Assembly (NCBI GenBank): GCA_028284885.1
Contig: JANQQW010000320.1
Location: 1 to 44,103 of the forward strand
DNA from: Planctomycetaceae bacterium
GTDB taxonomy: Bacteria > Planctomycetota > Planctomycetia > Planctomycetales > Planctomycetaceae
Direction of reading: 5' to 3'
Length of the DNA: 44,103 bases
The position numbers and the translations under genes are program-made. Under the pieces are notes generated by a model. That model was given only the letters and a program-made list of their open reading frames with translations. It ran no database searches and had not been told where the DNA came from. Below are positions 3,516-38,598 of this stretch, one piece after another; position 1 is the stretch's first letter; every line of letters starts with the position of its first letter.

Positions 3516-4061
3516 GTGTACGAAGTCGAGATGAAGTTCCCACTCGCCGACCCCGCTCGGCTGCGGGCGGCGCTCGCGGAACTGGGGGCGACGGCCGAGG
3601 AGCCGCTCGAGCAGCGGGACGTCTACTTCGCTCACCCGGCCCGGGACTTCGGCGAGACCGACGAGGCGTTCCGCGTGCGGGTCGTCGGCGAGCAGAACGT
3701 CGTCACGTACAAGGGGCCGGTCGTCGGCGACCGCACGAAGACCCGCCGCGAGATCGAAATCCCCTTCGCCGACGGCCGGGCGGACGAGTTCGAGGCGATG
3801 CTGTCGCTGCTCGGCTTTCGCGAGGTCCGAGCCGTCCGCAAGCGACGAACGCCCTACCACTTCACCTGGGAGGCCAGACCGGCCGAGTGCGTCGTCGACG
3901 AGGTGGACGGGCTCGGGACGTTCGCCGAAGTCGAGGCGACCGCCGACGAGGCGACCCGCGAAGCGGTTCAGGACGCCCTGCTCCGGCTGGCCGAACGACT
4001 GGGCCTCGAAGGACAGGAACGGCGGTCCTACCTCGTGATGCTGCTGGAGACGGATGACTGA
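3516..4061 (+). CDS. cyaB: Class IV adenylate cyclase / CYTH-domain protein
   Basis: A 181-residue protein starting at GTG 3516. It opens with the CYTH signature ExExK (EVEMKF, residues 3-8) and continues with the charged strands of a triphosphate tunnel fold: FRVRVV, VVTYKGP, KTRREIEIPF, KRRTPYHF, VVDEVDGLGTFAEVEA. The length and pattern fit the CyaB class, which includes cAMP-forming and thiamine-triphosphatase-like enzymes acting on organic triphosphates in the cytoplasm. The substrate cannot be told from sequence alone. It is 22 bases after the DUF971 gene, so co-transcription is likely. An inverted repeat begins right after its stop. Confidence 0.87.
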   Translation: MYEVEMKFPLADPARLRAALAELGATAEEPLEQRDVYFAHPARDFGETDEAFRVRVVGEQNVVTYKGPVVGDRTKTRREIEIPFADGRADEFEAMLSLLGFREVRAVRKRRTPYHFTWEARPAECVVDEVDGLGTFAEVEATADEATREAVQDALLRLAERLGLEGQERRSYLVMLLETDD

Positions 4062-4131
4062 GGAGTCAGGAGGCAGGGATCAGGGAGCCGGGTCGCGATG
4101 ACGTGACACCTGACCCCTGCCCCCTGACTCC
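4062..4131. repeat. Inverted repeat of the CTGACCCCTGACTCCTG family
   Basis: The 17 bases at 4062-4078 (GGAGTCAGGAGGCAGGG) pair with 4115-4131 with one mismatch, leaving a 36-base loop. The left arm starts at the base after the CYTH stop codon. It could form an RNA hairpin that ends or protects the upstream transcript. It belongs to a repeat family seen several times in the first 9 kb. Confidence 0.7.
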
Positions 4132-4207: not shown

Positions 4208-5332
4208 ATGTCGTTCCGATCCTTTGCCGTGAACAGCTTCTGTGTCGTCTTCTGCACGGCGTCTCTCGCGACCGCCGCGGACGAGCCGAAGCTCGGAAAG
4301 GCGTTCGACGCCGCCCTCGGACGTGTCGCCGAGCGGTGCGAGCAGGCAGAGGTCGGGAAGCTGCTCGTCGTCGTGCGACTCGACGCCGCCGTCCGAAACG
4401 CCCCGGCCGGGCTCGAGGACACGATCTTCGACGCCGCCGAGACCGTGCTGAAGTCGGCCGCGGAGAAGGTCGAGGTGGAGCGTTGCCCGGTGGCCGCGAC
4501 GATGGCCGTCGCCGACCGGGCGAGACGCTTGCTCTCGGTTCGCGAGGTCCACGAGCTGGGCGAGGCGTTCGAGTTCGACGGTGTCCTCGCCGCGACGTTT
4601 CGTGTGAGCCGCGGATCGCCGTCCGTCCGTCTCGCGTTGTTCGACACGGACCGGCGGCTGTCGCTCGAACACGTCACCGTCGGCGAGAAGACGGTGGTCG
4701 CGGCGATCGACCGGTTCCGCCGGTCCGACCCCAGGCCTTCGACACGCCCGACCGGCGGAACGCTCCGCCCCGGTCCGACGGCTCCGAACGGACGCCCCAC
4801 GACTCCCGCCGGCCGACCGACCGCGGGCCCCACGCCCCGTCCGAACTCCCCCGGTGCGGGTCCGGGCACCACGCCGGGACCCGGAGGCGGCGGCAACGGC
4901 GACCCGGGTATGGACTCCGGACCGACACCGCCCCCCGGTGGTGAGGCGGTCGGTCTGAACAAAGGCGTGCTCGAGTTCGCCCAGCGGAATTTCGGCCGGC
5001 AGGTCGGGAACGGCGAGTGCTGGACGCTCGCCAACGAAGCCCTCATCGCCGCCGGGGCCCGCAAGGCGAACGGCTACACCTTCGGCCGTGGCATTCCCCG
5101 CGGCGACCTCACGCCGGGCGACGTCCTCCAGTTCAAGAGCGTCCGCCTCGAACGGGGCAACCGGTTCTGGACGCTCGGTGCCCCTCACCACACCGCGGTC
5201 GTCGAGGCGGTTGCGGGGAACGTCGTGACCGTCCTGCACCAGAACTTCGGCACCCGGAACGTCACCCGGTTCACCTTCGACTTCGGCGACCAGGTCCAGG
5301 GCGAGGTGCACGCCTTCCGGCCGGTCAGATAG
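4208..5332 (+). CDS. Secreted protein with papain-fold-like (CHAP/BBC1-type) C-terminal domain
   Basis: The start is placed at ATG 4208, after a GGAG site, because it opens a clean signal peptide ending near AxA (SLATAADE); the reading frame upstream runs through repeat DNA. The mature protein (374 residues in total) has three parts: an N-terminal alpha/beta region of about 150 residues; a Pro/Gly/Thr-rich linker of about 80 residues; and a C-terminal domain of about 125 residues with GECWTLANEAL near the start and PHHTAVVEA later. A Cys in the first helix and a His in a beta strand are the arrangement of papain-fold CHAP/NlpC-like domains. A peptidase or amidase role at the cell surface is inferred only. 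A convergent esterase gene ends 8 bases away. Confidence 0.7.
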   Translation: MSFRSFAVNSFCVVFCTASLATAADEPKLGKAFDAALGRVAERCEQAEVGKLLVVVRLDAAVRNAPAGLEDTIFDAAETVLKSAAEKVEVERCPVAATMAVADRARRLLSVREVHELGEAFEFDGVLAATFRVSRGSPSVRLALFDTDRRLSLEHVTVGEKTVVAAIDRFRRSDPRPSTRPTGGTLRPGPTAPNGRPTTPAGRPTAGPTPRPNSPGAGPGTTPGPGGGGNGDPGMDSGPTPPPGGEAVGLNKGVLEFAQRNFGRQVGNGECWTLANEALIAAGARKANGYTFGRGIPRGDLTPGDVLQFKSVRLERGNRFWTLGAPHHTAVVEAVAGNVVTVLHQNFGTRNVTRFTFDFGDQVQGEVHAFRPVR

Positions 5333-22245: not shown

Positions 22246-22962
22246 TCACCACGGATTTCTGCCCTGATTGTACTGCTGATAGTTCGAGAACGCCAGAAGA
22301 CCGAAGAGGATCGACGGGTACTCCAGGCCGTCGTAGAGGTACAGGAAGCCGATGGCGACGAGGGCCCCGACGACGAACCCCACCTTGAGCGCCGTCACGT
22401 TCCCGCGGTGCCCCTGCTTCCACACCAGCAGCTCGCGGCAGATGTTCCCGCCGTCGAGCGGCAGCACCGGCAGCAGGTTCACGAGGCCCCACCACAGGTT
22501 GATGTACTCCAGCTGGCCGATCGCGTGCCAGATCTGCAGCGGCACCTGCACGGCGACCTCCGGAGAGAGGACCAGCAACTGCTTCACGCCGAAGACGACG
22601 CCGAACAGCACGAACCCGGCCCCCGGTCCGGCGAACGAGATCCAGATCGCCCGCCCGGTCGTGTACCGCTTCGCGAACCGGCTGCCGGAGCTCGGCTGGT
22701 AGATGGCCAGCCCGCCGAAGTGGTAGAGCACGATCTGCACCGGGTAGCCCGAGTGGTAGGCCGCCAACGCGTGTCCCAGCTCGTGGACGAGGATCGACAC
22801 GAACAGGCAGAGGATCCAGACGAGCAGGAACTCGATCCCCGCCTCGACGAGCCCCCAGCCCATGATCGCCCCCACCACCCAGAAGCCGGGGTGCACTCGG
22901 CAGGGGATGCCGAACAACGAGAAGTGGAGATCGAACGGCGTCTCGCCAACCTGACCGAACAC
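22246..22962 (-). CDS. Site-2 protease family (M50) membrane metalloprotease
   Basis: A 238-residue integral membrane protein. The zinc site is HELGH at residues 60-64 inside a TM helix (SILVHELGHALAAYHSGYP), and the third ligand lies in NLLPVLPLDGGNI near residue 170. Additional TM segments are WVVGAIMGWGLVEAGIEFLL, the glycine-rich FAGPGAGFVLFGVVFG and VGFVVGALVAIGFLYLY. No PDZ or CBS domain is attached, so it is the minimal form. Substrate unknown. It is transcribed away from the retron, 297 bases from the RT start. Confidence 0.92.
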   Translation of the reverse strand: MFGQVGETPFDLHFSLFGIPCRVHPGFWVVGAIMGWGLVEAGIEFLLVWILCLFVSILVHELGHALAAYHSGYPVQIVLYHFGGLAIYQPSSGSRFAKRYTTGRAIWISFAGPGAGFVLFGVVFGVKQLLVLSPEVAVQVPLQIWHAIGQLEYINLWWGLVNLLPVLPLDGGNICRELLVWKQGHRGNVTALKVGFVVGALVAIGFLYLYDGLEYPSILFGLLAFSNYQQYNQGRNPW

Positions 22963-23056
22963 AGTCGTCCTCGCGGGAAAGGGCGCGGCGACTCTACCGC
23001 ACGTCGTTCCCCACCGCCAAGGCGCGGCCCCGGTCGTCGGCTACACTCCTCGGGAC

Positions 23057-23231
23057 GGCTCGTGGGTCGCACGAGATTCCTTCCCGTCACGCCTGACCGC
23101 GCGACGCGAAGCCTGCGGGGGTACCCCGTGGGAGAAGCGTTGTTCGACACTCGACGGTTCGGCGTTCGTTCGTTGCGACCCTGCAACGCAACGAACGCCG
23201 GGCACGGGACCAGTCGTGCGACCCACGAGCC
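23057..23231 (+). ncRNA. Candidate retron msr-msd RNA
   Basis: This 175-base segment has the layout of a retron template RNA. The outer arms a1 (23057-23074) and a2 (23214-23231) are an 18-bp perfect inverted repeat, GGCTCGTGGGTCGCACGA and its complement. Just inside a1 is an unpaired G (23075) that could be the branching guanosine. An msr-like hairpin lies at 23112-23132 (9 bp with two G-U pairs, loop GTA). The msd-like part is a long hairpin: 23160-23176 pairs with 23183-23200 with one bulged base and loop GACCCT. The a2 arm ends 27 bases before the reverse transcriptase start, on the same strand. Branch site and cDNA ends are inferred. Confidence 0.8.
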
Positions 23232-23258
23232 CGGTTTCCGACCTTCGACCCCCGTGCC

Positions 23259-24521
23259 GTGACCTACGCATTCCTGGCTCTCGTCGTCGTGGTGCTCGTG
23301 CTGCTCGCGACGTCGCTCTCCGGCTCGAAAGCGGGCGAGTCCCGTCGCCGTCGCGAGCCGGTCCGGCTCGTGCCGCTCCGCCGACGGAGGCAACCGCGTC
23401 GACTCTCGGCCCGCGCGGTGACGGAGCAGAAGCCGTACGCGTTCGCCCGCAGGATCACGTCGCCCAGCGGATACCTCGACGACTCCCGGGACGGCAGCGA
23501 GACGAAGCTCCGCAGCCTCGGTCTGCCGGTTCTCCGCACGCCGGCCGACGTCGCCGACTGGCTGGAGCTCCGCGTCGGCCAGCTCGCCTGGCTGGTCCAC
23601 TTCGACCTGCCCGGCCAGGCCCCCACGACCGAGCGAACGGCCCACTACGTCTTCCGTTGGAAGGCGAAGCGGTCCGGCGGGCACCGGCTGATCGAGAGCC
23701 CCAAGCCGCTCACCCGACGGGCCCAGGTCCGCATCCTCGACGAGATCCTCCGACGCGTTCCGACGCACCCGGACGCACACGGTTTCGTTCCGGGCCGGTC
23801 GATCGTGACGAACGCGCGGCCACACGTCGGCCGCCGCGTCGTGCTGAAGCTCGACCTCGAGAACTTCTACGCCTCCGTCCGGTTCAACCGCGTGGTCGCC
23901 CTGTTCCGGTCGCTCGGCTACGCACGGGAGGCGGCCGTCTGGCTCGCCCGTCTCTGCACGTCGGCCGCGCCGTCGAGTCTGCGGTTCCCCGACAACCAGA
24001 CCGACGCCCTGCGGCCCTACCTCGGCCGGCACCTCCCGCAAGGAGCACCGACCTCCCCCGCACTCGCGAACCTCTCCGCCTTCTCGCTCGACGTGCGGCT
24101 CGCGGGGCTCGCCCGCTCCTTCCACGCGAACTACACCCGCTACGCGGACGACCTCACGTTCTCCGGCGACCGTCCGTTCCTGCTGTCGCTGCGGACGTTC
24201 GTCCCGCTCGCCCAGCAGGTCGTCCGGCAGGAGCGCTTCGGCGTGAACCGCCGCAAGCGGAAGGTGCTTCGCGACAACCAGCGGCAGCAGGTGACCGGCG
24301 TCGTCGTCAACGAGCACCCGAACGTCGCCCGTGCCGACTACGACCGGCTGAAGGCGATCCTGCACAACTGCACGAAGCACGGACCCGCCTCGCAGAACCG
24401 GGACGCCCACCCGGACTTCGCCGCGCACCTCCGCGGCCGCGTGGCCCACGTCGCCCAGCTCAACCCGAGGCGCGGCGCGAAGCTGCTCGCCCTCTACGAG
24501 CAGGTCGACTGGCGCCGCTGA
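23259..24521 (+). CDS. Retron-type reverse transcriptase with N-terminal membrane anchor
   Basis: A 420-residue reverse transcriptase from GTG 23259. Motifs in order: HRLIESPKP (142 on), HGFVPGRSIVTNARPH with the retron region-X NAxxH at 185-189, LDLENFYASV (the first catalytic Asp), PQGAPTSPALANL, RYADDLTFSG with YADD at 295-298, and VTGVVVN at 345-351, the retron region-Y VTG. No maturase or HNH domain follows, arguing against a group II intron. The 100 residues before the RT core include ETKLRSLGLPVLRTPADVADWL, as in myxobacterial-type retron RTs. Odd: residues about 4-21 are a strong hydrophobic segment followed by an arginine-rich stretch, suggesting membrane anchoring. It should copy the upstream RNA into branched ssDNA. 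Confidence 0.9.
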   Translation: MTYAFLALVVVVLVLLATSLSGSKAGESRRRREPVRLVPLRRRRQPRRLSARAVTEQKPYAFARRITSPSGYLDDSRDGSETKLRSLGLPVLRTPADVADWLELRVGQLAWLVHFDLPGQAPTTERTAHYVFRWKAKRSGGHRLIESPKPLTRRAQVRILDEILRRVPTHPDAHGFVPGRSIVTNARPHVGRRVVLKLDLENFYASVRFNRVVALFRSLGYAREAAVWLARLCTSAAPSSLRFPDNQTDALRPYLGRHLPQGAPTSPALANLSAFSLDVRLAGLARSFHANYTRYADDLTFSGDRPFLLSLRTFVPLAQQVVRQERFGVNRRKRKVLRDNQRQQVTGVVVNEHPNVARADYDRLKAILHNCTKHGPASQNRDAHPDFAAHLRGRVAHVAQLNPRRGAKLLALYEQVDWRR

Positions 24522-25694: not shown

Positions 25695-28600
25695 GTGTCC
25701 CAGTCGCACGAACACGACCGAGTCGACGCGTCCGGAGCGGGTTCCGATCTCTCGGACCGGCTGCAGGCGTTCGTCGACGCGTGGGAGGCGGGGGACGAGC
25801 CGCCGTTGGCCGACCACCTCCCGTCGCTCGTCGAACCGGAGGCGCGTTGGCAGGCACTCTGCGAACTGGTGAAGGTCGACCTCGAGTACCGCTGGGGGGA
25901 CCGGAACCGGCCGAAGCGGCTCGAGGACTTCCGGGCGGAGCACGCGGAGCTCGGCAGCCGCGAGTTCCCGGCCGACGTCGTCTTCGAGGAGTTCCTGCTG
26001 CGGCGGGCGGCCGGCTTCGAGGTCCGCCCCGAGGACTACTACGAGCGGTTCCCCGAACGGGTCCGTGAGTTGCGGCCCATGTTCGGCGAGTCCGACGCGA
26101 CGCGGGTCGCCGGGCGGTCGCGGGCCCCGGAGGGCTCGTCGGTCGAGCCGGCCGCGTTCGTCGACCGACTCCACTCGGCCGGGCTGCTGACGGAGGACGA
26201 CCTCGAACGGTACTTCGGCGAGCCGGACGACGACGTGACGACGCTCGCGAACGGGCTCGTCGACGGCGGCCGGCTGACCCGCCTCCAGGCGGACCGACTC
26301 CTCCGCGACCGGCCGATCGTGCTGGGCGAGTACCTGCTCGTCGAACGGATCGGCGCGGGCGGCATGGGCGAGGTCTACCACGCCGTGCACCGCCGGATGG
26401 ACCGCGACGTCGCCCTGAAGATTCTCCCCGACCACCTCGTGCACACCGCGGCGGACGTCGCCCGCTTCGAACGCGAGGTCCGCGCGGCCGCCCAGCTCGT
26501 CCACCAGAACATCCTGACCGCCTACGACGCCGGCGAGCGGGAGGGGGTCCACTTCCTCGTCACCGAACTCGTCGACGGGCCGAACCTCAAGTCGCTCGTC
26601 GTTCGCGGCCGGCCGCTGACCGTCACCGAGGCGGTCGACGCGACGCTGCAGGTCGCCGCCGGGCTCGCCTACGCCCACGCCCGCGGCATCGTCCACCGCG
26701 ACGTGAAGCCCTCGAACCTGCTGATCGACTCGACCGGCTGCGTGAAGATCCTCGACATGGGACTCGCCCGGTTCGACTCGACCGAGATCGAGGAGACCAC
26801 GCTGACGAGTTCCGGAATGGTGATGGGGACCGTGGACTACATGGCACCGGAGCAGGCGATGGACGCCCGCCGGGCCGACGCCCGGGCCGACCTCTACTCG
26901 CTGGGCTGCTCGCTCTTCTTCCTGCTGACCGGCCGCCCGCCGTACCGCGGGGCGACGGCGATGCAGCGGGTCGTCGCCCACCGCGAGGAGCCGATCCCCC
27001 TGCTCTCCGACCGAGTGCCCGACGCGCCCGCGCGGCTCGAGGCGGTCTTCTCCAAACTGCTCGCCAAGTCGCCCGGGAAGCGGTTCCAGTCGGCCGACGA
27101 ACTGCTCGACGCCATGCGTGGCCTCCCCCAACGCCGGATCGACGTCGCCGCGATCACGGGGGACGAACCGACGGACGAACCCGACCCCACGCCCACGGAC
27201 CGCGACGTCGCCGACCCCGCCCAACGATCGACGTACATCGGCACCGCGAGCGCCGACGCGGCCACCGACGGCGAACGCCCGGACGACACCGTGCGAGCCA
27301 GCCGGGTCGGGGGCTCGACCAGAGAGGGAGACGGCCTCGCTCGGAACCGGATCGCGGTCGGCCTCGGGGCCCTGCTGCTGGTCCTCCTCGTCGCGATCGG
27401 CGTCCGCTCGTTCTTCACGCCGCCCGACGACCCGCCGACGCCCGAGCCAAGCGCCAACCGGGCGCTCCGGTTCGACGGTCGGTCTGCCCACGTCGTCGTC
27501 GAGTCCCTCGATCTCGCCGAGCACGACGCGTTCACGGTCGAGCTGTTCGCGACGATCGACCGCTCGCGACCGTCGAACCTCGTGAACTGGTTCGGCCGCA
27601 ACTGGTTCGTCGTCTACCACGTGAACTCCGCCTGGGGGGCGGGCGTCGAGGGGTCCCGGCCGGTCGAGCTGCTGCAGGTCGACGACCGAGCGGTCCCCGG
27701 CCGTCGCACGCACCTCGCCGTCACCTGGGACGGTCGCGAGAAGCGGATCTTCGTCGACGGCCAACCACTCCCGAGCGTCCCCAACGAGTACGACGTCCGG
27801 CCCGTCACGAGCCGCGGCCTGTACGTCGGCGGCGCCCCGGCCGACAAGCTCCCCGAGTGGGAGGAGGACCGTTGGTTCAGCGGCCTGATCGACGAGCTCC
27901 GCATCTCGTCCGGTGTCCGCTACACGGAGGCCTTCGAGCCGGCCGAACGTCCCGATGCCGACGAGACGACGATCGCTCTGTACCACTTCGACGAGGAGTC
28001 CGGCGACGTCGCCCTCGACTCCTCCGGAAACGACCACCACGGCCGAGTCGTCGGCGCCGAGCGGGTCGATGCGCGTGAACCGGTCGGCACGTTCCCCGAC
28101 CCCGTCGAACCGCCTCCCGCCGCCGAGGTCGATCCCCCGCCGGCCGCCGCGTCGATCACCCGCGACGACGGCTGGTTCGACGTGCTCGCCCTGCACGTCC
28201 CGAAGTACGACAGCCCGCCCGGCGGCGGAGAGTGGCGGCAGACCCCCGACTACCTCGAGAGCCCCGCCGCCGAGTTCGCCCGCGTCTCCTTCCCCGTCGT
28301 CCCGAACGACGAGTACCGGTTGCGCGTCGAGTTCGAGCGGGTCGAGGGGCATGACGCCGTCGACGTCTACCTGCCGGTCTACACACGGCAGGTGCTGTTC
28401 GTCTTCGACGGCTGGGGCGGCAGCGGGCTCAGCGGGCTGCAGGCGGTCGACGGCAAGAACAAGCCCGACCCCCGTCGCCGCGAGGGAGCCGCGAACACGC
28501 CGATCGAGAACGGCCGCCGCTACGTGGCCGAGTTCCGCGTCTCCGCGGCGGGTGAGGGACGGGTCACCATCGGCGTCCGGCTCGACGACTGGCCGCTGAT

Positions 28601-28766
28601 GTCCTGGACCGGGCCGGTCTCGTCGCTGCGGCTGATCGACCCGAAGTTCGAACTGTCCGACAAGCGGCGCCTCGGTGTGGCCGCGTGGGACTCCGTCGTC
28701 CGGTTCCACCGCGTCGAGTTGATGGTCAAGGACGGCCAGTCGGCCACCATCCTCCGCCCCCGTTAG
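25695..28766 (+). CDS. Transmembrane Ser/Thr protein kinase with LamG-like domain
   Basis: A 1023-residue protein from GTG 25695. Residues 1-200 are an acidic helical region common in planctomycete kinases (LVEPEARWQAL, DYYERFPE). The kinase domain starts near 209: IGAGGMGEVY glycine loop, VALKILP, HRDVKPSNLL near 334, DMGLARF, and APEQ; the catalytic set is complete. A TM helix (VGLGALLLVLLVAIGV) lies near 552-575. Outside the membrane comes a LamG/concanavalin-like domain (LRFDGRSAHVVVESLDL to ALYHFDEESGD), then a second beta-rich region to the end. The layout suggests a receptor kinase that senses a glycan or surface ligand. No partner phosphatase is adjacent. Confidence 0.93.
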   Translation: MSQSHEHDRVDASGAGSDLSDRLQAFVDAWEAGDEPPLADHLPSLVEPEARWQALCELVKVDLEYRWGDRNRPKRLEDFRAEHAELGSREFPADVVFEEFLLRRAAGFEVRPEDYYERFPERVRELRPMFGESDATRVAGRSRAPEGSSVEPAAFVDRLHSAGLLTEDDLERYFGEPDDDVTTLANGLVDGGRLTRLQADRLLRDRPIVLGEYLLVERIGAGGMGEVYHAVHRRMDRDVALKILPDHLVHTAADVARFEREVRAAAQLVHQNILTAYDAGEREGVHFLVTELVDGPNLKSLVVRGRPLTVTEAVDATLQVAAGLAYAHARGIVHRDVKPSNLLIDSTGCVKILDMGLARFDSTEIEETTLTSSGMVMGTVDYMAPEQAMDARRADARADLYSLGCSLFFLLTGRPPYRGATAMQRVVAHREEPIPLLSDRVPDAPARLEAVFSKLLAKSPGKRFQSADELLDAMRGLPQRRIDVAAITGDEPTDEPDPTPTDRDVADPAQRSTYIGTASADAATDGERPDDTVRASRVGGSTREGDGLARNRIAVGLGALLLVLLVAIGVRSFFTPPDDPPTPEPSANRALRFDGRSAHVVVESLDLAEHDAFTVELFATIDRSRPSNLVNWFGRNWFVVYHVNSAWGAGVEGSRPVELLQVDDRAVPGRRTHLAVTWDGREKRIFVDGQPLPSVPNEYDVRPVTSRGLYVGGAPADKLPEWEEDRWFSGLIDELRISSGVRYTEAFEPAERPDADETTIALYHFDEESGDVALDSSGNDHHGRVVGAERVDAREPVGTFPDPVEPPPAAEVDPPPAAASITRDDGWFDVLALHVPKYDSPPGGGEWRQTPDYLESPAAEFARVSFPVVPNDEYRLRVEFERVEGHDAVDVYLPVYTRQVLFVFDGWGGSGLSGLQAVDGKNKPDPRRREGAANTPIENGRRYVAEFRVSAAGEGRVTIGVRLDDWPLMSWTGPVSSLRLIDPKFELSDKRRLGVAAWDSVVRFHRVELMVKDGQSATILRPR

Positions 28767-29341: not shown

Positions 29342-32300
29342 TCACGCTCCGCCGCTGACTGACTCGAAGATCGCCTTCGCGAGATACGGCAACGCGGTGG
29401 CCCGGAATTTCTCATCCTCGAGGTAGCGGGTGACGATCGCGTCGTTGTCGCTCATCCGTTCAATCATCAACGACTCCATCAGCTTCTCGATGCCGAGCTG
29501 GAACTTGTCGAGCGTGTTGGCCTTCGCCGTCGAGACGACCCGCTCATCGCTGGCGGCCTTGGCCCGGATCTGCTCGAAGAACAGCCGGTCCTCCTCGGCC
29601 AGTTCCGTCCCGAACCGATCGTTGAGCACCTTGATCAACTCGGAGAGCGGTACGTCCTCCTCCTTCGCCTTCCGTGAGCCGACATCCGTCGGCCCCTTCA
29701 CGCCGTCGGATTCACCGTCCGACAGGTCGATCTCCCCCGAAAACGTCTGCTGCGTGCGGATGTGGGAGAGTTCGACCTCGCCCTCAAGCCGCACGGCGGT
29801 GGTGTTCAGCCCGGTGGGGAGGTCGGGGAGAACGAACTTCCCAAAGCCGTAGAGCATCTCCAACTCCCGGTCCGGGTACGGCATGATCTGGCTGAGGAAC
29901 GAGTACAACTGGACGAAGGCCGAGAGCTTTTCACGAAACTCGATCCGCTCGTCGTCGTCCTCGATCCCCTTGAAACGGTCGACGCAGGGGGCGGTCCACC
30001 GCTTCAGGTCGGCGTGGTCCTTGCTCCGCTGGTGCTCGGGGCGTTTGAAGAAGACCTTGGCGAACGCCTCGACCTCGCTCCAGTGGTAGACCTGCTTCTC
30101 GCCGAGTTCGTGCTTCAGCGCCTCCAGCTTCTCCGGCTCCGAGACCTCCTGCAGGCTCGTCGCGTCGTAGTACGGCTTGAAGGCGTCGTACACGTCATCG
30201 GCCTCGTTCACGAAGTCGAGGACGAAGGGCTCCTCCTTGCCTGATATCTTCCGATTGAGCCGTGAGAGCGTCTGCACGGCCTGCACGCCGTCGAGCCGCT
30301 TGTCGACGTACATCGCCATCAGCAGCGGCTCATCGAAGCCGGTCTGGTACTTGTTGGCCGCGATGAGGACTTGGTAGTCGGACGACTCGAATCGCTCGGG
30401 GAGTTGCCGTTCGCTGATCGGCTTCCCGGTGACCACGTCCGGGTTCATCTGCGGCTCGGTGTACTCGGCCTCCGTGTCCGGGTCGACCACCTTTCCGCTG
30501 AACGCAATGAGGGCCCGCACGTCGTCGTAGCCGTGCTCCTGGACGTACTTGTCGAAGGCCAGCTTGTACTTCACCGCGTGCAGCCGAGAGGACGTAACCA
30601 CCATTGCCTTCGCCTTGCCCTCCAAGTGGCTCCGCACGGACCGGCGGTAGTGCTCGATGATGATCTCGATCTTCTGCTCGATGTTCGTCGGGTGGAGGAC
30701 AACGAACTTCGCCAACGCCCGTTGGCCCTTCCGCTTCGGAAGGTTGGGATCCTCCTCAATCTGCTTCACCAGCCGGAAGAAGGTCTTGTACGTCGTGTAG
30801 TTCTGAAGCACGTCGAGGATGAACCCCTCCTCGATCGCCTGCCGCATACTGTAGACGTGGAATGCCTCCGGCTTGCCGTCGGTCCCCGGCCGGCCGAACA
30901 GTTCGAGCGTCTTCCCTTTCGGCGTTGCCGTGAACGAGAAGAAGCTGACGTTCGGCTGCTTCTGCCGCGACTGCAGCACTCGGTTGATGCCATCCTCCCA
31001 GTCTTCGTCCTCGTTCGAGGACGCGACGTTCGCCCCGAGCAGCTGCTTCATTTCGCGGGCCGTGTCGCCAGTTTGGCTGGAGTGAGCCTCGTCGACGATC
31101 ACGGCGTATCGTCGCTTCGCAATCCGCTCCGCCCACTCCTTGGCCGCCTTCTTGGCATCTTCGTCCGGGTTGTCGATGTCGTCGGCCCCGGCGTGCTTCA
31201 GTAGTCCGCGAAGCACGAACGGAAACTTCTGCAGCGTGGTGACGACGATCTTCGTCTCGTCGACGAGCGCCTTGGCGAGCTGGGACGAGTCCTCGTCGAT
31301 CGCCTGGACGACGCCCTGCACGTGCTCAATCTGGTAGATCGCGTCCTGCAGCTGGTCGTCGAGGACTCGCCGGTCGGTGATCACGATCACCGTGTCGAAG
31401 ACCTTCTCGTCGGCGTCGTTGTGCAGACTCGCAAGGCGGTGCGACAGCCATGAGATGCTGTTCGTCTTGCCGCTGCCGGCGGAGTGCTGGACGAGGTAGG
31501 ACTCTCCCGACCCCTCGCCGCGTGCCCTTGCGACGAGCTCCCGCACGGCGTCCAGCTGGTGGTACCGCGGGAAGATCATCGTCTCCTTCTGGATCGTCTT
31601 CTTGCCGCCGTGGCCGTCGTCGATCTTCTCCTCGCTCCTTTCGACGAACATGAAGTGCCCGAGGATGTCGAGGAGGCTGTCTCGCTGGAGCACCTCCTCC
31701 CAGAAGTAGCCGGTGCGGTAGCCGCTGGCGTGGACAGGGTTGCCAGCCCCGCACTTCACGCTTCCGGGGTCGCTACCACGGTTGAAGGGGAGGAAGTAGG
31801 TCTTCTCCTTCCGCAGCCGTGTGGTCATGTAGACCTGCTCGGAGTCCGCGGCGAAGTGGACCAGCGCCCGCTGCTTGAACGCGAAGAGGGGGGCGGTCGG
31901 CTGACGATCGTGCCGGTACTGGTGGATCGCGTTCGCCCACGTCTGGCCGGTCTGCGGGTTCTTCAACTCGATGGTCGCGATCGGCAGCCCGTTGACGGCG
32001 AGCACGATGTCGACGGTACTCCCGTCGTTGGGATGGCAGGGCACCTGCCGCGTAACCGTCAACTCGTTCGCGGCGTACTTCTCCAGCACGTCGGGGGAGA
32101 GCCGGTGGGCCGGCTTGAACTGCGCCGCGCGGAACGTCTTGCCGTAGAACTTGAAGCCGTGCCGCAGGACGTGGAGCGTCCCCTTGAGGCCGAGCTCCTT
32201 CACCACAGCCTTGGTGAGCATCGCCTCCAGCCCCTTGCCGTGGAGCGTCCGCATCTCCTCCCACAGCTTCGGCTGCGTCGCTTGGAGGAACGAGAACAGC

Positions 32301-32425
32301 CGGGCCGGGAACAGGGCATGCTCCTTGTCCCATTCCCCGAGTTCGCCTGGCTTCCAGCCGGCCTTCGTGCGCAGGAGTTCCTCGACGTAGGACTCGAAGG
32401 CCTTCTCGGTGTGCATTCCGGGCAT
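29342..32425 (-). CDS. hsdR: Type I restriction endonuclease, R subunit
   Basis: A 1027-residue motor and nuclease subunit. ATG 32425 is chosen for the GGGAGGA site 6 bases upstream; the longer open frame only reads the AATCGTCAG repeats. The N-terminal nuclease domain shows VDIVLAVNG and TIELKNPQTGQ (D..ExK) near residue 150. The helicase follows: Walker A QHSAGSGKTNSI near 312, VDEAHSSQTG (DEAH box) near 443, FFSFTATPKGKTLELFG as motif III, and KYQTGFDEP and QTLSRLNR as later motifs. It should cut DNA away from unmethylated sites in complex with HsdM and HsdS. It is last in the minus-strand operon. All key motifs look intact, in contrast to hsdM. Confidence 0.95.
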   Translation of the reverse strand: MPGMHTEKAFESYVEELLRTKAGWKPGELGEWDKEHALFPARLFSFLQATQPKLWEEMRTLHGKGLEAMLTKAVVKELGLKGTLHVLRHGFKFYGKTFRAAQFKPAHRLSPDVLEKYAANELTVTRQVPCHPNDGSTVDIVLAVNGLPIATIELKNPQTGQTWANAIHQYRHDRQPTAPLFAFKQRALVHFAADSEQVYMTTRLRKEKTYFLPFNRGSDPGSVKCGAGNPVHASGYRTGYFWEEVLQRDSLLDILGHFMFVERSEEKIDDGHGGKKTIQKETMIFPRYHQLDAVRELVARARGEGSGESYLVQHSAGSGKTNSISWLSHRLASLHNDADEKVFDTVIVITDRRVLDDQLQDAIYQIEHVQGVVQAIDEDSSQLAKALVDETKIVVTTLQKFPFVLRGLLKHAGADDIDNPDEDAKKAAKEWAERIAKRRYAVIVDEAHSSQTGDTAREMKQLLGANVASSNEDEDWEDGINRVLQSRQKQPNVSFFSFTATPKGKTLELFGRPGTDGKPEAFHVYSMRQAIEEGFILDVLQNYTTYKTFFRLVKQIEEDPNLPKRKGQRALAKFVVLHPTNIEQKIEIIIEHYRRSVRSHLEGKAKAMVVTSSRLHAVKYKLAFDKYVQEHGYDDVRALIAFSGKVVDPDTEAEYTEPQMNPDVVTGKPISERQLPERFESSDYQVLIAANKYQTGFDEPLLMAMYVDKRLDGVQAVQTLSRLNRKISGKEEPFVLDFVNEADDVYDAFKPYYDATSLQEVSEPEKLEALKHELGEKQVYHWSEVEAFAKVFFKRPEHQRSKDHADLKRWTAPCVDRFKGIEDDDERIEFREKLSAFVQLYSFLSQIMPYPDRELEMLYGFGKFVLPDLPTGLNTTAVRLEGEVELSHIRTQQTFSGEIDLSDGESDGVKGPTDVGSRKAKEEDVPLSELIKVLNDRFGTELAEEDRLFFEQIRAKAASDERVVSTAKANTLDKFQLGIEKLMESLMIERMSDNDAIVTRYLEDEKFRATALPYLAKAIFESVSGGA

Positions 32426-32452
32426 CTCGATCCTCCCGCCGACGGCCGGCGT

Positions 32453-32551
32453 CTGACGATTCTCGATTTCGGCCTGACGATTGTCTGACGATTCCGGCCA
32501 CTGGCGGAATCTGACGATTTCACGATGCGGTCTGACGATTATCTGACGATT
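32453..32551 (-). repeat. Tandem 58-bp duplication built of AATCGTCAG units
   Basis: CTGACGATT (AATCGTCAG on the minus strand) occurs six times, beginning at 32453, 32474, 32485, 32511, 32532 and 32543. The spacings 21, 11, 26, 21, 11 show that three units form a block duplicated at a 58-base period. The block spans the end of the DUF4062 gene and the leader of hsdR. The repeats read SDNRQ in the upstream protein's tail. Confidence 0.85.
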
Positions 32552-34091
32552 CGCCCGCTCCACGCAGCACGTAGCGAGTCGACCGTCCCGCCCCTTTTCT
32601 CGCGGCGATCCCGAGCTTCACGAGTTCCTTCAAGTCCCTCGCCGACGTGTCCCGCGTCACGCCGAACGTCTCGATGCACCAGCCGCTCGTCACCGCCTCG
32701 CCCTGCAGCATCACCTCGACGATCTGTCGCTGACGGTCGTTGAGTTGCTCTTCGACCGACGGAGGCACGACGTTCGACGACACATCACCCGGAGTACGGA
32801 TCCGGTCGAGGTCATCGCCGGGGCCGGCCAGCGTGACCACGAAGTGCCCGCTGTCCGTCCCGAATCGCGGTGGGTCGAGACCGTGGTCGAGCATCTCGGC
32901 GTGCATCCGCCGGATCCCACTGCCGCGTTCCTCGATCTTCTCGAAGAACGACAGTCCGAAGGCAATCAGCGGGTTTCGCGAACTCGGGCGGTAGTTGCCG
33001 GACCGCAATTTCGACAGCGTCACCGGCTTCGGCGGCAGGCCCGGACTCGAGATGACGACCCGATCCTTGAACACCTCCACGCTGATCCGCTGTCCCTCCT
33101 GCTCGTAGTCCCGGTGGGCGACGGCGTTCACCAACGCCTCCCGCAGTGCCTCCTCCGGGTACTCGTTCAGCTTCACTTGGGTCAGCGCCACAACGCGGAT
33201 CGGGTGCCGCGTGTTCTTCCACACGAAGTCGACGATCTCGCCGATCGCGAGCGGCAGCGGCCCGTTCACCTGATGCGAGTCGTCCGGCCGGTGCGTCCGC
33301 TTCGTCCCCCGGTAGGCATCCAGCATGATGCGGCTCTGGGGAAGCACGGCTGCGGGGTCGCTTCCCAGCAGGAGCAGCGCGGCCGCGGTTGGGAAGTCCT
33401 CGTCGCGCGACGAGTCGTGCCACACGAGCCCTCGCCGGCGAAGCCGCTCCCGCACGTTCTCACGCGACATGCGGGCCGCACTCACGCCGTCCGCTCCCGA
33501 GATGAACCGCCGGCAGAGCTTCAGGTCGAGCGCCGTCCAGGGCACCTGATCGATCTGTCGCAGCCCGAACCCCGAGGCCGACTCGACGGCATCGGAGCCG
33601 AGCTGGTTCTCGTCGGAGGTCGGCTCGATCTGAAACTCGTCCCGGAAGACCTTCAGGAGCGACCGTCGCACCTCCTGCTGCATCTGGCCGATGTCGCCGA
33701 ATCGCTTGTACTTGAAGCCATCCTTCTTGATCTCGGCGAGCAGCTTCTCCCGGACGGACTTCTCACGTCCCGTGTCGCGGGCACCGCGGATGAAGATCAG
33801 GATCGGGAGTTCCCGCTCCTTCGCTCGGCGGTACTCGTGGTGCGTGATCGACAGCTCGTCGAACTCGTAGCCGTACTGGTCACCGACGATCAGCACGTAC
33901 GCCTCGCAGCCGTCGATCAGTTCGAGGCACTCCTTGACCGCCTTCTTCGGGGAGGCCGGCTCGACCTCGTAGAGGACCGCCTCTCCGTGCTCGTGCAGGA
34001 ACGGATCGATCGTGAACAGGTTGGCGATCGCGAGCCGGTGGTCCTGCAACTCGCTCTGGACGGAGCTGACGAAGACGCGACGACGCGACAT
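32520..34091 (-). CDS. DUF4062 + HATPase_c_4/AlbA-type regulator fused protein in RM operon
   Basis: A 523-residue protein from ATG 34091, whose A is also the last base of the hsdS stop (TGATG), so translation is coupled. Residues 1-150 are a DUF4062 domain, TIR/SLOG-like in character: RRVFVSSVQSELQDHR, CEAYVLIVGDQYGYEFDELSITHHEYRRA. The middle has the pattern of AlbA_2/HATPase_c_4 'RecG-related' regulators: YPEEALREALVNAVAHRDY, DRVVISSPGLPP, RNPLIAFGLSFFEKIEERGSGIRRM. Residues about 440-510 form a winged helix (NDRQRQIVEVML, TSARDLKELVKLGI). The last residues (SDNRQTAS) come from the repeat block. The role is not known; it may sense a signal and control or arm the RM system. Confidence 0.88.
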   Translation of the reverse strand: MSRRRVFVSSVQSELQDHRLAIANLFTIDPFLHEHGEAVLYEVEPASPKKAVKECLELIDGCEAYVLIVGDQYGYEFDELSITHHEYRRAKERELPILIFIRGARDTGREKSVREKLLAEIKKDGFKYKRFGDIGQMQQEVRRSLLKVFRDEFQIEPTSDENQLGSDAVESASGFGLRQIDQVPWTALDLKLCRRFISGADGVSAARMSRENVRERLRRRGLVWHDSSRDEDFPTAAALLLLGSDPAAVLPQSRIMLDAYRGTKRTHRPDDSHQVNGPLPLAIGEIVDFVWKNTRHPIRVVALTQVKLNEYPEEALREALVNAVAHRDYEQEGQRISVEVFKDRVVISSPGLPPKPVTLSKLRSGNYRPSSRNPLIAFGLSFFEKIEERGSGIRRMHAEMLDHGLDPPRFGTDSGHFVVTLAGPGDDLDRIRTPGDVSSNVVPPSVEEQLNDRQRQIVEVMLQGEAVTSGWCIETFGVTRDTSARDLKELVKLGIAARKGAGRSTRYVLRGAGESSDNRQTAS

Positions 34092-35452
34092 CACGCCTCC
34101 CCCCGCACGTCGATCTTGCCGGTCACGGCCGCGGTGATCAGGGCCGTGCGGAACTCCTGCAGGCGGTCGATCGCCTCCTCGACCTTCGCAGTCATCGCGT
34201 CCAGCTTCTCGGTTTCGATGTCCAAGAAGGATGCGATCGCCTCCTGTTCTGGTAGAGGCGGCCGTGGGAACCTGTAACGCCGCAGCTTCTCGCCGGGAAG
34301 GTGAGGAATCGTGTTCGGATTGCCCTCTGCCGTGAAGATCCCGAAGCCATTCGCCCATCGAAGCGTGTAGCAGAAGTATCGGGGTGATTCGGACTCCGTT
34401 CGCGGTCGGATTCGATGTAGGGCCTTCTGGTATCCGAGTCCCGCGGAATCCTCTCCTACGATGGCACAGCGACCAAGTTCCCTGCCCTCACACGCGAGGA
34501 TGTCACCCGGTTCGACGGTGAATCGCAATCGCTCCGCCGGGAGGATGTCCATCTCGGGCAGCCCGACTTTGTGAATCCGATCCCACCGAACGTCAGTGTT
34601 TCTCAGATAGCGGATTGGGTGCTCACCGGTGATCCGCTTCGCGTCCACCATCTTGCCCAAGTCCACTCGGAAACGGGCGTTGACGGGCGGTGTCTCCCAG
34701 TGTTTCGGCACCTCGCCGAGCCAGTCGATGCCGGAGTCCTTCATCGGGGGGTGGGGGTCGAGGCCGGCGGCGCGGGCGGCGTCGGGGGGGAGGCCGCGGG
34801 TGACGGTGCGGGAGATCAACGCCTGCCGCTTCTCCGCCAGCCGCTCGATCAACTCCCGCTTCTTCCCGATCAGCAGATCGACCTTTGCCGTCTCGCGATC
34901 GAGGAAAGCCGCGATCGAGCGTTGCTCGTCGATGCTCGGAACCGCGATGCGAAGTGACGCAGCATCTGCCTGATAGATCGTCTTGTGGGTCGAGCCTGAC
35001 ATGAGACGATCGAACTCACCGCGCATCGCGCGGAACGTGTGCAGGAGGTAATCGGGGACGAGCTTCGGCCCGCAGACCCAGTTCCAAAAGTCCTGCGAGG
35101 TCGCCATCGGTCGCGGCATGATGCCCGAGAACCCAACCGAGGCTGTTCGAGAGAACACCACCGTATTTGTGGGAAGCAACTCAGCAGCCGAGTTCGCCAG
35201 CCCCAACTTGCTGATCGTTTCGGCGGTCTCCCCCAAGAGCTTCTGGCGGCCGTCTCGAAGCTGCCAGATGTCCTTCAGCGTGAACCACGGGATCTCGCAG
35301 TCTTCCCAATACGCGCCTTCGGTCCGAGAGGGCGTGTGCCCGGTCCGCATCATCGCGAACCGACGGATGTTGCCGACCTCCCAGTGCTCCGGCACCTCGC
35401 CGAGCCACTCGACACCGCTTGCCTTGTAGCTCGGGTAAGCTGCGCGACTCAC
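34091..35452 (-). CDS. hsdS: Type I restriction specificity subunit
   Basis: A 453-residue specificity protein from GTG 35452, overlapping the hsdM stop by four bases (GTGA). It has the expected two halves. Each opens with a WLGEVPEHW/WLGEVPKHW-type motif (near residues 15 and 230), continues with a target-recognition domain, and closes with a helical spacer: FLDRETAKVDLLIGKKRELI and FLDIETEKLDAMTAKVEEAI. The two recognition domains differ, so the site should be bipartite and asymmetric. It positions HsdM and HsdR on DNA. No frameshift is seen. Confidence 0.93.
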   Translation of the reverse strand: MSRAAYPSYKASGVEWLGEVPEHWEVGNIRRFAMMRTGHTPSRTEGAYWEDCEIPWFTLKDIWQLRDGRQKLLGETAETISKLGLANSAAELLPTNTVVFSRTASVGFSGIMPRPMATSQDFWNWVCGPKLVPDYLLHTFRAMRGEFDRLMSGSTHKTIYQADAASLRIAVPSIDEQRSIAAFLDRETAKVDLLIGKKRELIERLAEKRQALISRTVTRGLPPDAARAAGLDPHPPMKDSGIDWLGEVPKHWETPPVNARFRVDLGKMVDAKRITGEHPIRYLRNTDVRWDRIHKVGLPEMDILPAERLRFTVEPGDILACEGRELGRCAIVGEDSAGLGYQKALHRIRPRTESESPRYFCYTLRWANGFGIFTAEGNPNTIPHLPGEKLRRYRFPRPPLPEQEAIASFLDIETEKLDAMTAKVEEAIDRLQEFRTALITAAVTGKIDVRGEA

Positions 35453-37580
35453 GCCGTCACCTCCCGCAGCAGGCCGAGGATCTCCTCCTCCAGCTGCTTG
35501 ATGTCGCCCTCGATTTCCTCCAGCGGCCGCGGCGGCTCGTAGCGGTAGAAGTGCCGGTTCAGCGGAAACTCGTAGCCGACCTTCGTCTTCGACTCGTCGA
35601 CCCACGCATCCGGGACGTGCGGCAGCACCTCGCGGGCGAGGTAGTCGGCGATCCTCTCCTTGAGCGGCACCGTCTCCGTGTCCCGCAGCTGCGAGTCCGG
35701 CTCCGGGTTCCCCTTCTTGTCCCGGCAGATCTCCGCCGCCTCGTCCCGTTCGGAGAGGGCCGAGAGGATCGCCTTCCGCTCCACCGCGACGAGCTTCTCA
35801 CCCGCCGATTTCTCGTGGGCCTTGAGGGCCTTCTCGAACGCCGTCCGATCCCGGTACAGTTGCCCCTCGGTCGTCGTTGCCAACCTCGCGAGGAAGTCGC
35901 GAAGCTCCTGCTGCCGCTGCTCCCCGGCCGCGATCTCCTTCCGCCGCGCGGCCTCCTGCTTCTTTTTGCTCTTCGCGAGGTTCACGAACGTCGTCTCGTC
36001 CTCGATGCGGGCGATCCGTTCCTCGCTCGCCTGGAAGTTCAGTCGCAGCGGTCGTTCGACCGTGATCTTGTGGAAGCCGAAGTCTTCGTTGTCGAAGACC
36101 TTGCTGACGACGAGTTCCTTCGTGACCGGCTGTCCCTTCTTGTCGGTCAGCGTGAACTCGTGAGTCTCGCCGTCGGAGAAGTTGCCGCGGAGGCGGGTGA
36201 TCTCACCGACGTGGTCCGGGTCGTTCGGCGAGCCGGGGTCGCTGGGGTCGCCGATCTTCCTTCGCTTGTTCCCGAGGCTCTTCTTCATCGGGATCCAGAA
36301 GTTGCGGGCGTCGACGAGCTGGACCTTCCCTTTCCGCTCGTCCTCCTTGCGGTTGGTGAGCACCCAGACGTAGGTGGCGATGCCGGTGTTGTAGAAGAGC
36401 TGCTCGGGCAGGGCGACGATCGCCTCCAGCCAGTCGTTCTCGATGATCCAGCGGCGAATCTCGGACTCGCCGCTCCCGGCATCCCCGGTGAAGAGCGGCG
36501 AGCCGTTGAACACGATCGCGACACGGCTGCCGCCGTCGTCCGGGCTCCGCATCTTCGAGAGCATGTGCAGCAGGAACAGCAGGGCTCCGTCGTTGATCCG
36601 CGGAAGGCCGGGGCCGAAGCGGCCATCGAAGCCGAGCTTCGCGTGCTCGTCCTCGATGGTCTTCTTCTGCTTCTTCCACTCCACGCCGAAAGGCGGATTG
36701 GCCAGCATGTAATCGAAGCGAAATCGCTCGCCATTCGCGTTTCTGTCGAATCCATCGCCATGAACGTGTCACCGAGGATGATGTTCTCGGCCGAGTCCCC
36801 CTTGATGAGCATGTCCGCCCTGCACACGGCCCAAGCCTCGTCGTTGTCGTCTTGCCCGTAGAGGTGCGGATTCGCGTCGGCGTTGAGTTGGCGGATGTAC
36901 TTCTCGGATTCCGAGAGCATCCCACCCGTCCCGCAGGCCGGGTCGTAGATTGTCTTCACGACGTGGCTGCGTCGCAGGTCCTGCTCAGGCGCAAGCAGAA
37001 GGTTGACCATCAGCCGGATCACCTCTCTCGGAGTGAAGTGATGCCCGGCCTCCTCATTAGATTGTTCCGCCCCAATTCGGATGAGTTCCTCGAAGGCGTA
37101 GCCCATCTGGATGTTGTCGACCCGCTCTGCCGAGAGGTCGATCTCCGGCTTGCAGAAGGCCTTCACGACCTCGAAGAGCAGGTTCTTCTCGGCCATGCGG
37201 GCGATGTGCGTGTCGAAGCCGAAGCGGTCGATGATGTCCCGCACGTTCGGCGAGAAGCCCGCGATGTAACTGTTGAAGTTCGGTGCGAGCTGGTTCGGAT
37301 CGTCCAGCAGCCGCGGCATGTCGAGCTTTGAAGTGTTGTAGAACGCTGCCCCAGAGACTTGCTGCAGCTTGTGCCGCACCACGGAGTCCGGCTTCCCCTT
37401 CAGCTTCTCAGCCTCGTCGAGCACAGCCTGCTTCGTGGGCGCGAGCAGGCAGTCGAATCGCCGGAGGACGGTCATCGGCAGAATGACCTTGCGGTATTCG
37501 TTCCGCTTGTACGGCCCGCGGAGCAGGTTGCAGATGCTCCAGATGAAGTTGGCGATCTCGCGGTGGGACAACGGCGGCAT
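35449..37580 (-). pseudogene. hsdM: hsdM, type I DNA methyltransferase, frameshifted
   Basis: Two frames together make one HsdM. The first, from ATG 37580 (MPPLSHREIANFIWSICNLL; ATG 37619 is an alternative), holds HHFTPREVIRLMV and the SAM-binding motif YDPACGTGGM, and reads homologously to IILGDTFM. The second resumes as DGFDRNANGERFRFDY and carries the catalytic NPPFGVEW and the C-terminal half down to 35449. The shift lies at about 36751-36765 and fits the loss of one base (or gain of two). It separates the two catalytic motifs, so no active methylase is made unless ribosomes change frame or the base is a sequence error. HsdM would methylate adenine in the HsdS target. Confidence 0.88.
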
Positions 37581-37842
37581 GCGTGTGACCGGGCGCTCTG
37601 GCGGATAGTGGATCCGCATCACACGAGACTCGAGGGCGTCGCACAAGGGTTCACGCCGGAGGCACTGGGGAAACCCCATGCACCAGAACCAGCCGAACAG
37701 TGCGTCGGCTGGACGATCGTGATCGAAGCCGGAAGACTGGTCGTGCGACGCGGGATAGGGTCGCTCCCGAACGCCGGCCGTCCTACCCGGCTTCCCGCGT
37801 TCGCTCCTCGCTCCGTAGGACGCCGCGAGTAGGGCCGGGGCG

Positions 37843-38598
37843 ATGGCAGATGACCAGTGGGGCAGTGTTGAGGGTCGCCTCGAACGCGAGGCGGCTGAGC
37901 GCGCTGAGGGGGCGGGCCATGCGGCTCGCATCACCGACTTGCGGAATGCTCTCGACGCCGCGAATCCGTGGAGCGGTGCGGCGTACCCACGGCTCTGCGA
38001 AGCGGCTGGGATCGCCACACGACAAGCACCCGACGGCAAGTACCAGCTTGATCCACCGGAGCAGGAGGCGCGTCGGTTGCGAGACGTGTGGATCGATCGA
38101 CTTCGCCGACTGGCCGGCGTCATCGAAGATCAAGGACTGTGGGAGTGTGTCGGACACGTTCCCGAGGACAACGCTGCGGCGGTCATCGTGCGCATGATCC
38201 TCTCCGGCTGCAACGAAACAGAGTTGCATGACGCGATCCGGCGCTACGGCGGCCCGATCGCGCGAGATTGGACAACACTTGAAGACCGGCTCATGCGCGA
38301 TGGAGAAGCCGATCCGCAGGCCGTCTCGATGGTCGAGAAAGCTCTGGACGAGTCATCTGCTGGCGGTGACGAGGTTCACCAGTATGTCACGCTCGACCAG
38401 CTTGCCGCGATCATCGGGAGGAGCAAGAGAACCCTTGAACGGTGGCAACGGGAGAAGACGGGGTTCCCAATGCCTGACATCGAGGGCGGCGGCGGCAAGG
38501 CACACGAATGGCGGTGGGATCGTGTTCGCCCTTGGCTCATCAAGGAAGCAAAACGTGATCTCCCCGAGCGCTTCCCGGCAGATCGTGTTGTGAAGTGA
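37843..38598 (+). CDS. Island protein with C-terminal helix-turn-helix, function unknown
   Basis: A 251-residue protein, divergent from hsdM with a 262-base gap likely to hold both promoters. The N-terminal 180 residues are helical and charged (LEREAAERAEGAGHAARI, EQEARRLRDVWIDRLRRLAG) and match nothing I know. The C-terminal 65 residues (VTLDQLAAIIGRSKRTLERWQ, then HEWRWDRVRPWLIKEA) look like a MerR/excisionase-type winged HTH. It may regulate the island or bind its origin. First gene of the rightward mobility module. Confidence 0.7.
   Translation: MADDQWGSVEGRLEREAAERAEGAGHAARITDLRNALDAANPWSGAAYPRLCEAAGIATRQAPDGKYQLDPPEQEARRLRDVWIDRLRRLAGVIEDQGLWECVGHVPEDNAAAVIVRMILSGCNETELHDAIRRYGGPIARDWTTLEDRLMRDGEADPQAVSMVEKALDESSAGGDEVHQYVTLDQLAAIIGRSKRTLERWQREKTGFPMPDIEGGGGKAHEWRWDRVRPWLIKEAKRDLPERFPADRVVK

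Follow-up and report, generated by a model that had tools for sequence, protein, structure and literature searches.

A family-resident, stand-alone retron of the Planctomycetaceae with a probable membrane-binding helix on its reverse transcriptase

Introduction

Most current accounts treat retrons as suicide systems that act against phages and have a toxin gene close by. A stretch of 44,103 nucleotides (nt) from a Planctomycetaceae bacterium (contig JANQQW010000320.1; here called the window) carries at positions 23057 to 24521 a retron that raises the question of how such a system is to be understood when no toxin gene lies beside it. An earlier analysis of the bare letters (the sequence-only reading) had described this locus as a complete retron with a membrane-anchored reverse transcriptase (RT) and no standard effector gene adjacent to it. 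We consider it probable that the locus is a complete, single-copy retron, resident in the family and lacking a dedicated neighboring effector, in which the RT and its branched multicopy single-stranded DNA (msDNA) would be tethered by a helix of the membrane-binding type. We would class it as a stand-alone retron of the myxobacterial type whose RT bears an N-terminal helix for membrane targeting, the membrane location being proposed from sequence and evolution. No description of a planctomycete or a membrane-anchored retron was found in the literature, most subscription papers and bioRxiv preprints lying outside the search.

Results

The retron RT gene (23259..24521, plus strand) starts with GTG and encodes 420 amino acids. 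The protein carries the motifs NARPH (residues 185 to 189, region X), YADD (295 to 298), and VTG (345 to 347, region Y), which confirmed the NAxxH, YADD, and VTG signatures noted earlier. It matched the PADLOC models RT_other (1.7e-132), RT_outgroup (6e-125), and RT_XIII (1e-107); all 25 PADLOC matches listed for it were to retron RT models, while group II intron and DRT2 models scored far below these. A sequence search of the PDB returned retron Ec86 as the best match. The AlphaFold2 model reached a mean predicted local distance difference test score (pLDDT) of 89.9, and its best 18 fold matches in the PDB were all retron RTs, the nearest solved fold being the Ec86 RT (7v9x; E value of 1e-22, 28% identity). 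Neither the PADLOC matches listed nor these folds place the protein outside the retron RTs, a class assignment that is made from profiles, motifs, and fold. The window RT was the only RVT_1 match found in its genome. Pairwise ratios of nonsynonymous to synonymous substitution rates (dN/dS) for the RT domains of the orthologues ranged from 0.03 to 0.25, mostly from 0.03 to 0.16, in line with purifying selection on an intact RT.

Upstream of this gene, an 18-nt inverted repeat forms the arms a1 (23057..23074) and a2 (23214..23231) of the retron noncoding RNA (ncRNA), both on the plus strand and 139 nt apart. The arms are 100% complementary, exactly as the sequence-only reading had it, and a2 ends 27 nt before the RT start, also as described; in relatives it is followed by a short terminator-like T-run. 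The family a1/a2 helix ends in ...GCACAA/TTGTGC... and is followed by an invariant G, the msr hairpin, and a long msd hairpin. The unpaired G directly 3′ of a1 (23075, plus strand), our candidate for the priming (branching) guanosine, was invariant in all 32 aligned sequences. It is placed as known retrons place theirs, which occur in the sequence context TAGC, CAGC, CAGA, or GAGC (PMC6868368); the context in the window is CGAGA. The msr hairpin (about 23112..23132, plus strand; consensus over 32 loci cTGCGGGGnTACCCCGyGG) is the most conserved element of the ncRNA, with 100% of the alignment cells of helix 2 paired. The msd hairpin (about 23160..23200, plus strand), the predicted template of the RT-DNA, consists of helices 3 and 4. 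Both hairpins had been recognized before, but the msd stem, then given as 17 base pairs (bp), proved to be 11 + 7 bp with one bulge.

The 191-nt RNA from 23050 to 23240 folded at -116.8 kcal/mol (z = -6.97), and none of 200 shuffled sequences folded as well. Across 32 homologous loci, 93.5% of the cells in 39 aligned pairs were standard pairs, and 30 of the 39 changed two-sidedly (matched by 0 of 500 shuffles), including 15 of the 19 in the a1/a2 helix and all 12 in helices 3 and 4, where covariation was strong. The covariation score was 0.465 versus 0.168 for shuffles and about 0.10 for a slid alignment. The covariance model R1 matched the ncRNA (msr-msd; 23050..23243, plus strand) with an E value of 3e-36 in its own genome, the window sequence being among those used to build R1 and the training set consisting of planctomycete RNAs only. 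No curated family matched the ncRNA in an Rfam search up to an E value of 1. Taken together, the retron RT models and folds, the arms that are conserved and covary in homologous loci, and the lack of any relative that forces an RT start beyond the N-terminal helix strongly support a complete retron, which also looks functional. The sequence supports an ncRNA fold in which pairing of a1 and a2 exposes the G just after a1; the RT would prime from the 2′-OH of G23075 and copy the msd hairpin into branched msDNA.

The same RNA was found 5′ of orthologous RTs across the relatives. In a first set of 34 family loci, 33 had an R1 match next to the RT (the f53 loci L161 to L164, L063, and the detached RNAs L203 and L204 do not enter this count). 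In a second set the match was present in 47 of 53, the absences being contig ends, as at L237, or members of a split genus. When the window and seven loci identified by motif only were added and each genome was counted once, the ncRNA stood beside about 86 of the 89 orthologues with readable upstream sequence, and the three exceptions belonged to the split genus, g4. Several sampled genomes without this RT were scanned with R1 and gave no strong ncRNA match.

A sigma-70-type promoter (TTGAC-N15-19-TACGAT-like) was located just 5′ of a1 in 34 of 45 loci, compared to about 1% in shuffles, and a run of at least three T residues followed a2 in 39 of 45 (a raw count without a chance rate). Because promoter-type sequence before a1 and a T-run after a2 occur in most loci, the ncRNA is probably its own transcription unit. 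The window is among the 11 of 45 loci that did not match the promoter pattern; it has no clear -35 element, and a possible -10 element, TACACT, lies approximately at 23041..23046 (plus strand), the position of the family promoter. One genome (G035, locus L152) carried two tandem ncRNAs 5′ of a single RT (3923-4086 and 4242-4405, minus strand). In each of the three genomes of genus g4 (locus pairs L131/L206 in G003, L063/L204 in G466, and L264/L282 in G467), the RT had no ncRNA upstream, and one complete ncRNA was found on a separate contig. Both detached loci inspected showed promoter-like sequence and a T-run. The genes around the detached ncRNA were similar in these two loci, and since they look alike the split is probably old. 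RNA and RT occupy separate loci in g4, and the RNA is therefore an independent gene there, which makes this genus a natural two-gene system for tests of retron function.

The second question concerns the N terminus of the RT, which in the window reads VTYAFLALVVVVLVLLATSLSGSKAGESRRRR. Its best 19-residue Kyte-Doolittle mean (KD19) is 2.59, starting at residue 4, and we assigned a transmembrane (TM)-like helix to codons 4 to 22 (23268..23324, plus strand); AlphaFold2 placed a helix at residues 2 to 20. An arginine-rich linker of low confidence leads from this helix to the folded part (23325..23432, plus strand; pLDDT below 50 at residues 20 to 44 and 46 to 49), with disorder predicted for about residues 20 to 50. 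The start codon could have been miscalled, the true protein starting only after the hydrophobic stretch: the start is a GTG, and more GTG codons occur within and just after the stretch. However, the GC content of codons 1 to 20 is 0.75/0.30/0.90 by codon position, which is coding-like, relatives show an ATG followed directly by the helix, and residues 1 to 14 are under purifying selection in other genera, with a pooled ratio of nonsynonymous to synonymous polymorphism (pN/pS) of 0.25 versus 0.49 for the linker (residues 15 to 75). The GTG at 23259 is the first ATG, GTG, or TTG in the open frame, and no relative forces a downstream start. We regard a miscalled start as very improbable.

All 41 aligned orthologues carried a hydrophobic segment directly after the start. 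In 39 of them it was amphipathic, typically MGLFDFLRRLFG, and in two, the window RT and that of G024 (KD19 of 2.12), it was TM-like. About 40 more loci repeated the hydrophobic N terminus, with variants including MNLLVRILKWLFG and MPLWKFLKQLFFG, and a second genome of the genus of G024 was also TM-like (MEWLLLLVGAGLLSGFAVL, KD19 of 1.94). In the family tree, genus g25 is not the sister of the window's genus, g1, so that TM-like forms have at least two origins within the family. In a wider tree of 109 RTs, in which membrane-type N termini were assigned by eye, similar N termini occurred in the clade of the window, including a second planctomycete family (L046 to L049) and L082; in a planctomycete, verrucomicrobial, and deltaproteobacterial clade (L103, L112, L211, L214 to L217, L225, and L226); and in a third, small clade that contains Myxococcus L169, L213, and L227. 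L227 (G338:C1), a second and different retron RT, has a long N-terminal TM-type region, RWAKIPIWIVLAILMVLVLVIGGLLATVFGLI, with a strongly hydrophobic helix (KD19 of 3.1). In most of the remaining RTs the N-domain was helical and about 100 residues long, or the N terminus was of another kind. Counted over the family and the wider RT set together, TM-like forms emerge among amphipathic ones at three or more points. These comparisons support an anchor that is general in the family, its usual form being a short amphipathic helix and a true TM helix being exceptional. The hydrophobic helix at about residues 4 to 21 with its following arginines, on which the sequence-only reading had based a membrane-anchored RT, was recovered, and sequence and evolution favor anchoring; but this type of N terminus is more widespread than was claimed, and its usual form is amphipathic rather than TM.

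Amphipathic and TM-like helices exchange at one and the same place, as a membrane anchor would permit, and we take this as the best evidence for membrane binding. According to the positive-inside rule, the arginines after the helix would orient the RT toward the cytoplasm. The helix would tether the RT-msDNA particle to the cytoplasmic membrane from within, the positively charged linker and the RT lying inside the cell. Alternatively, the helix could be a protein-protein or oligomerization element of a cytosolic RT. Some retron complexes form higher-order assemblies, as in the oligomerization of Retron-Eco2 (PMC12405507), and short amphipathic helices could mediate such contacts. However, an all-hydrophobic helix of 19 residues has taken its place in three or more lineages, which agrees better with a membrane, and the linker is positively charged and predicted to be disordered. 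We consider a cytosolic RT unlikely.

How the retron is inherited bears on the question of a missing effector. The RT orthologue was present in single copy in 102 of the 170 genomes and 40 of the 58 genera of the window's family. RT fragments were monophyletic in 15 of the 16 genera with at least two members, and three of eight splits agreed between RT and RpoB (P = 0.013). Many genera share the gene order M50 peptidase (divergent), retron, membrane protein, mutL, aroD-like, aroK, prepilin peptidase, and hisH; apart from the M50 peptidase, these genes were named by visual inspection of their sequences. The window retains the M50 neighbor. The retron appears to be resident and mostly vertically inherited, with partial congruence to RpoB.

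The absence of a standard effector gene beside the retron was borne out. The flanking genes, which encode an M50 peptidase and a hypothetical protein, had no PADLOC or NCBIfam match, and profile searches found no known effector domain in the RT. The M50-type peptidase gene (22246..22962, minus strand; PF02163, 2e-16) lies divergently at a locus common to other genera and is the immediate neighbor of the RT in 18 of the 48 loci compared; it was rejected as a retron partner, the association being one of synteny only. The downstream membrane protein, found in 20 of the 48 loci (L156, L157, L165, and 17 more), is a family-specific protein of about 250 amino acids with conserved MPDQELFxIIHPGPPK and SSPVFAI; it was rejected as an effector as a family core gene that is present without the RT.

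It is possible, if somewhat less than an even prospect, that this is an ordinary anti-phage retron with an effector encoded away from it, whose RT-msDNA keeps a membrane-acting partner inactive as long as no phage disturbs the msDNA. An RT, an ncRNA, and a toxic effector are the usual parts of a retron defense system (PMC12548924). The lack of an adjacent effector still allows a distant one, and a type I restriction cluster lies 5 to 14 kb downstream. On the other side, the widely common neighbors across the 48 loci were only housekeeping genes and the one membrane protein, which is found also in RT-free genomes and on another contig of the window's own genome, and no conserved effector emerged. 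Single-copy vertical inheritance is, moreover, unlike that of mobile defense genes.

Two other features of the window were recorded. The type I restriction-modification cluster (29342-38123, minus strand) comprises HsdR, a DUF4062/HATPase_c_4 protein, HsdS, and HsdM; hsdM looks frameshifted or split because HsdM is found in two overlapping frames (36285-38123 and 35449-36708). A Ser/Thr kinase with a laminin-G domain (25695-28766, plus strand) matches PADLOC PD-T4-6 kinase models, probably because of its generic kinase domain.

Discussion

We rank a resident, membrane-bound retron with partners elsewhere or a cellular role first, followed by classical defense with a distant effector, a cytosolic RT with an interaction helix, and a helix that is itself the effector. 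The first two are compatible with each other. The resident function would most likely be to sense, or to restrain, a partner whose gene lies in another part of the genome, and vertical, effector-less inheritance fits a resident retron of the myxobacterial type no less well than it fits a suicide system triggered by phage.

Several observations weigh against a resident, membrane-bound retron. No RT match at an E value of 1e-100 was found in 68 of the 170 family genomes. The distance matrices of RT and RpoB agreed weakly (r = 0.22, P = 0.085); therefore, either the deep branching is unresolved or some transfer is included. The amphipathicity test fired on 12% of shuffled N termini and on other helical RT N-domains too. 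Because of this 12% background, the score was dropped as the sole classifier, and motif, position, and linker were used, partly by eye. Short N-terminal amphipathic helices can bind proteins as well.

Alternatively, the helix itself could act as the effector, a membrane-damaging peptide that is fused to the RT and kept inactive by msDNA, as a counterpart of RT-Toprim, RT-TIR, and RT-protease fusions. The coupling of msDNA sensing to membrane damage in a new way, which the sequence-only reading had proposed for a membrane-tethered retron, is a conjecture. RT-fused effector domains are known retron layouts, as PADLOC model names indicate, and no other effector was found. The MGLFDFLRRLFG type presumably resembles membrane-active amphipathic peptides. 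The helix is very short, however, TM-like forms replace the amphipathic one, and the long variable linker looks tether-like, so that we hold this explanation to be doubtful. Similarly speculative is the broader proposal that several retron RT lineages are membrane proteins whose helices, released when the bound msDNA is attacked or altered, insert or cluster and thereby depolarize the membrane. If the helix were the working end, sensor, signal carrier, and effector would be united in one polypeptide.

For the favored resident, membrane-bound retron, the consequence is that a bacterial family maintains one resident gene pair with a membrane-type anchor and no toxin gene beside it. The role of stand-alone, myxobacterial-type retrons becomes testable in culturable relatives, and the distribution of the helices points to an involvement of the membrane in the biology of retrons from several lineages.

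Comparison with known systems places the retron as follows. The PADLOC RT_other, RT_outgroup, and RT_XIII models matched all 31 aligned orthologues, the window RT best. The name RT_other carries no effector type; RT_XIII systems presumably have partner genes, which are absent at the window retron. Ec86 (Eco1) was solved in complex with a separate effector, according to its entry title, and has no anchor, whereas the window retron has no adjacent effector. RT-Toprim, RT-TIR, and RT-protease retrons resemble the window RT in having an extra module fused to the RT; their modules are enzymatic, while that of the window is an N-terminal helix of about 12 to 20 residues. Tripartite anti-phage retrons possess an effector gene or a fused effector domain, and neighbor and domain searches found neither at the window retron.

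Closest in habit are the myxobacterial retrons, which are described as vertically inherited with host-like codon use (PMC6868368, PMC8867640) and whose RTs carry N-terminal extensions of unknown function (PMC6868368). Mx162, Sa163, and Mx65 (Retron-Mxa1, -Sau1, and -Mxa2) share with the window retron a long msr-msd with a1/a2 arms and an N-terminally extended RT. The short membrane-type helix and linker of the window RT are unlike the Mx162 extension. L171 and L172, which we take to be Mx162-like RTs from their Mx162-type N terminus, fall in the same wider RT tree as the window RT but in a different clade, and R1, with its planctomycete-only training set, gave no match at these two loci. In RT sequence, and in being inherited vertically as a stand-alone unit, the window retron resembles the myxobacterial retrons, to which it is probably related.
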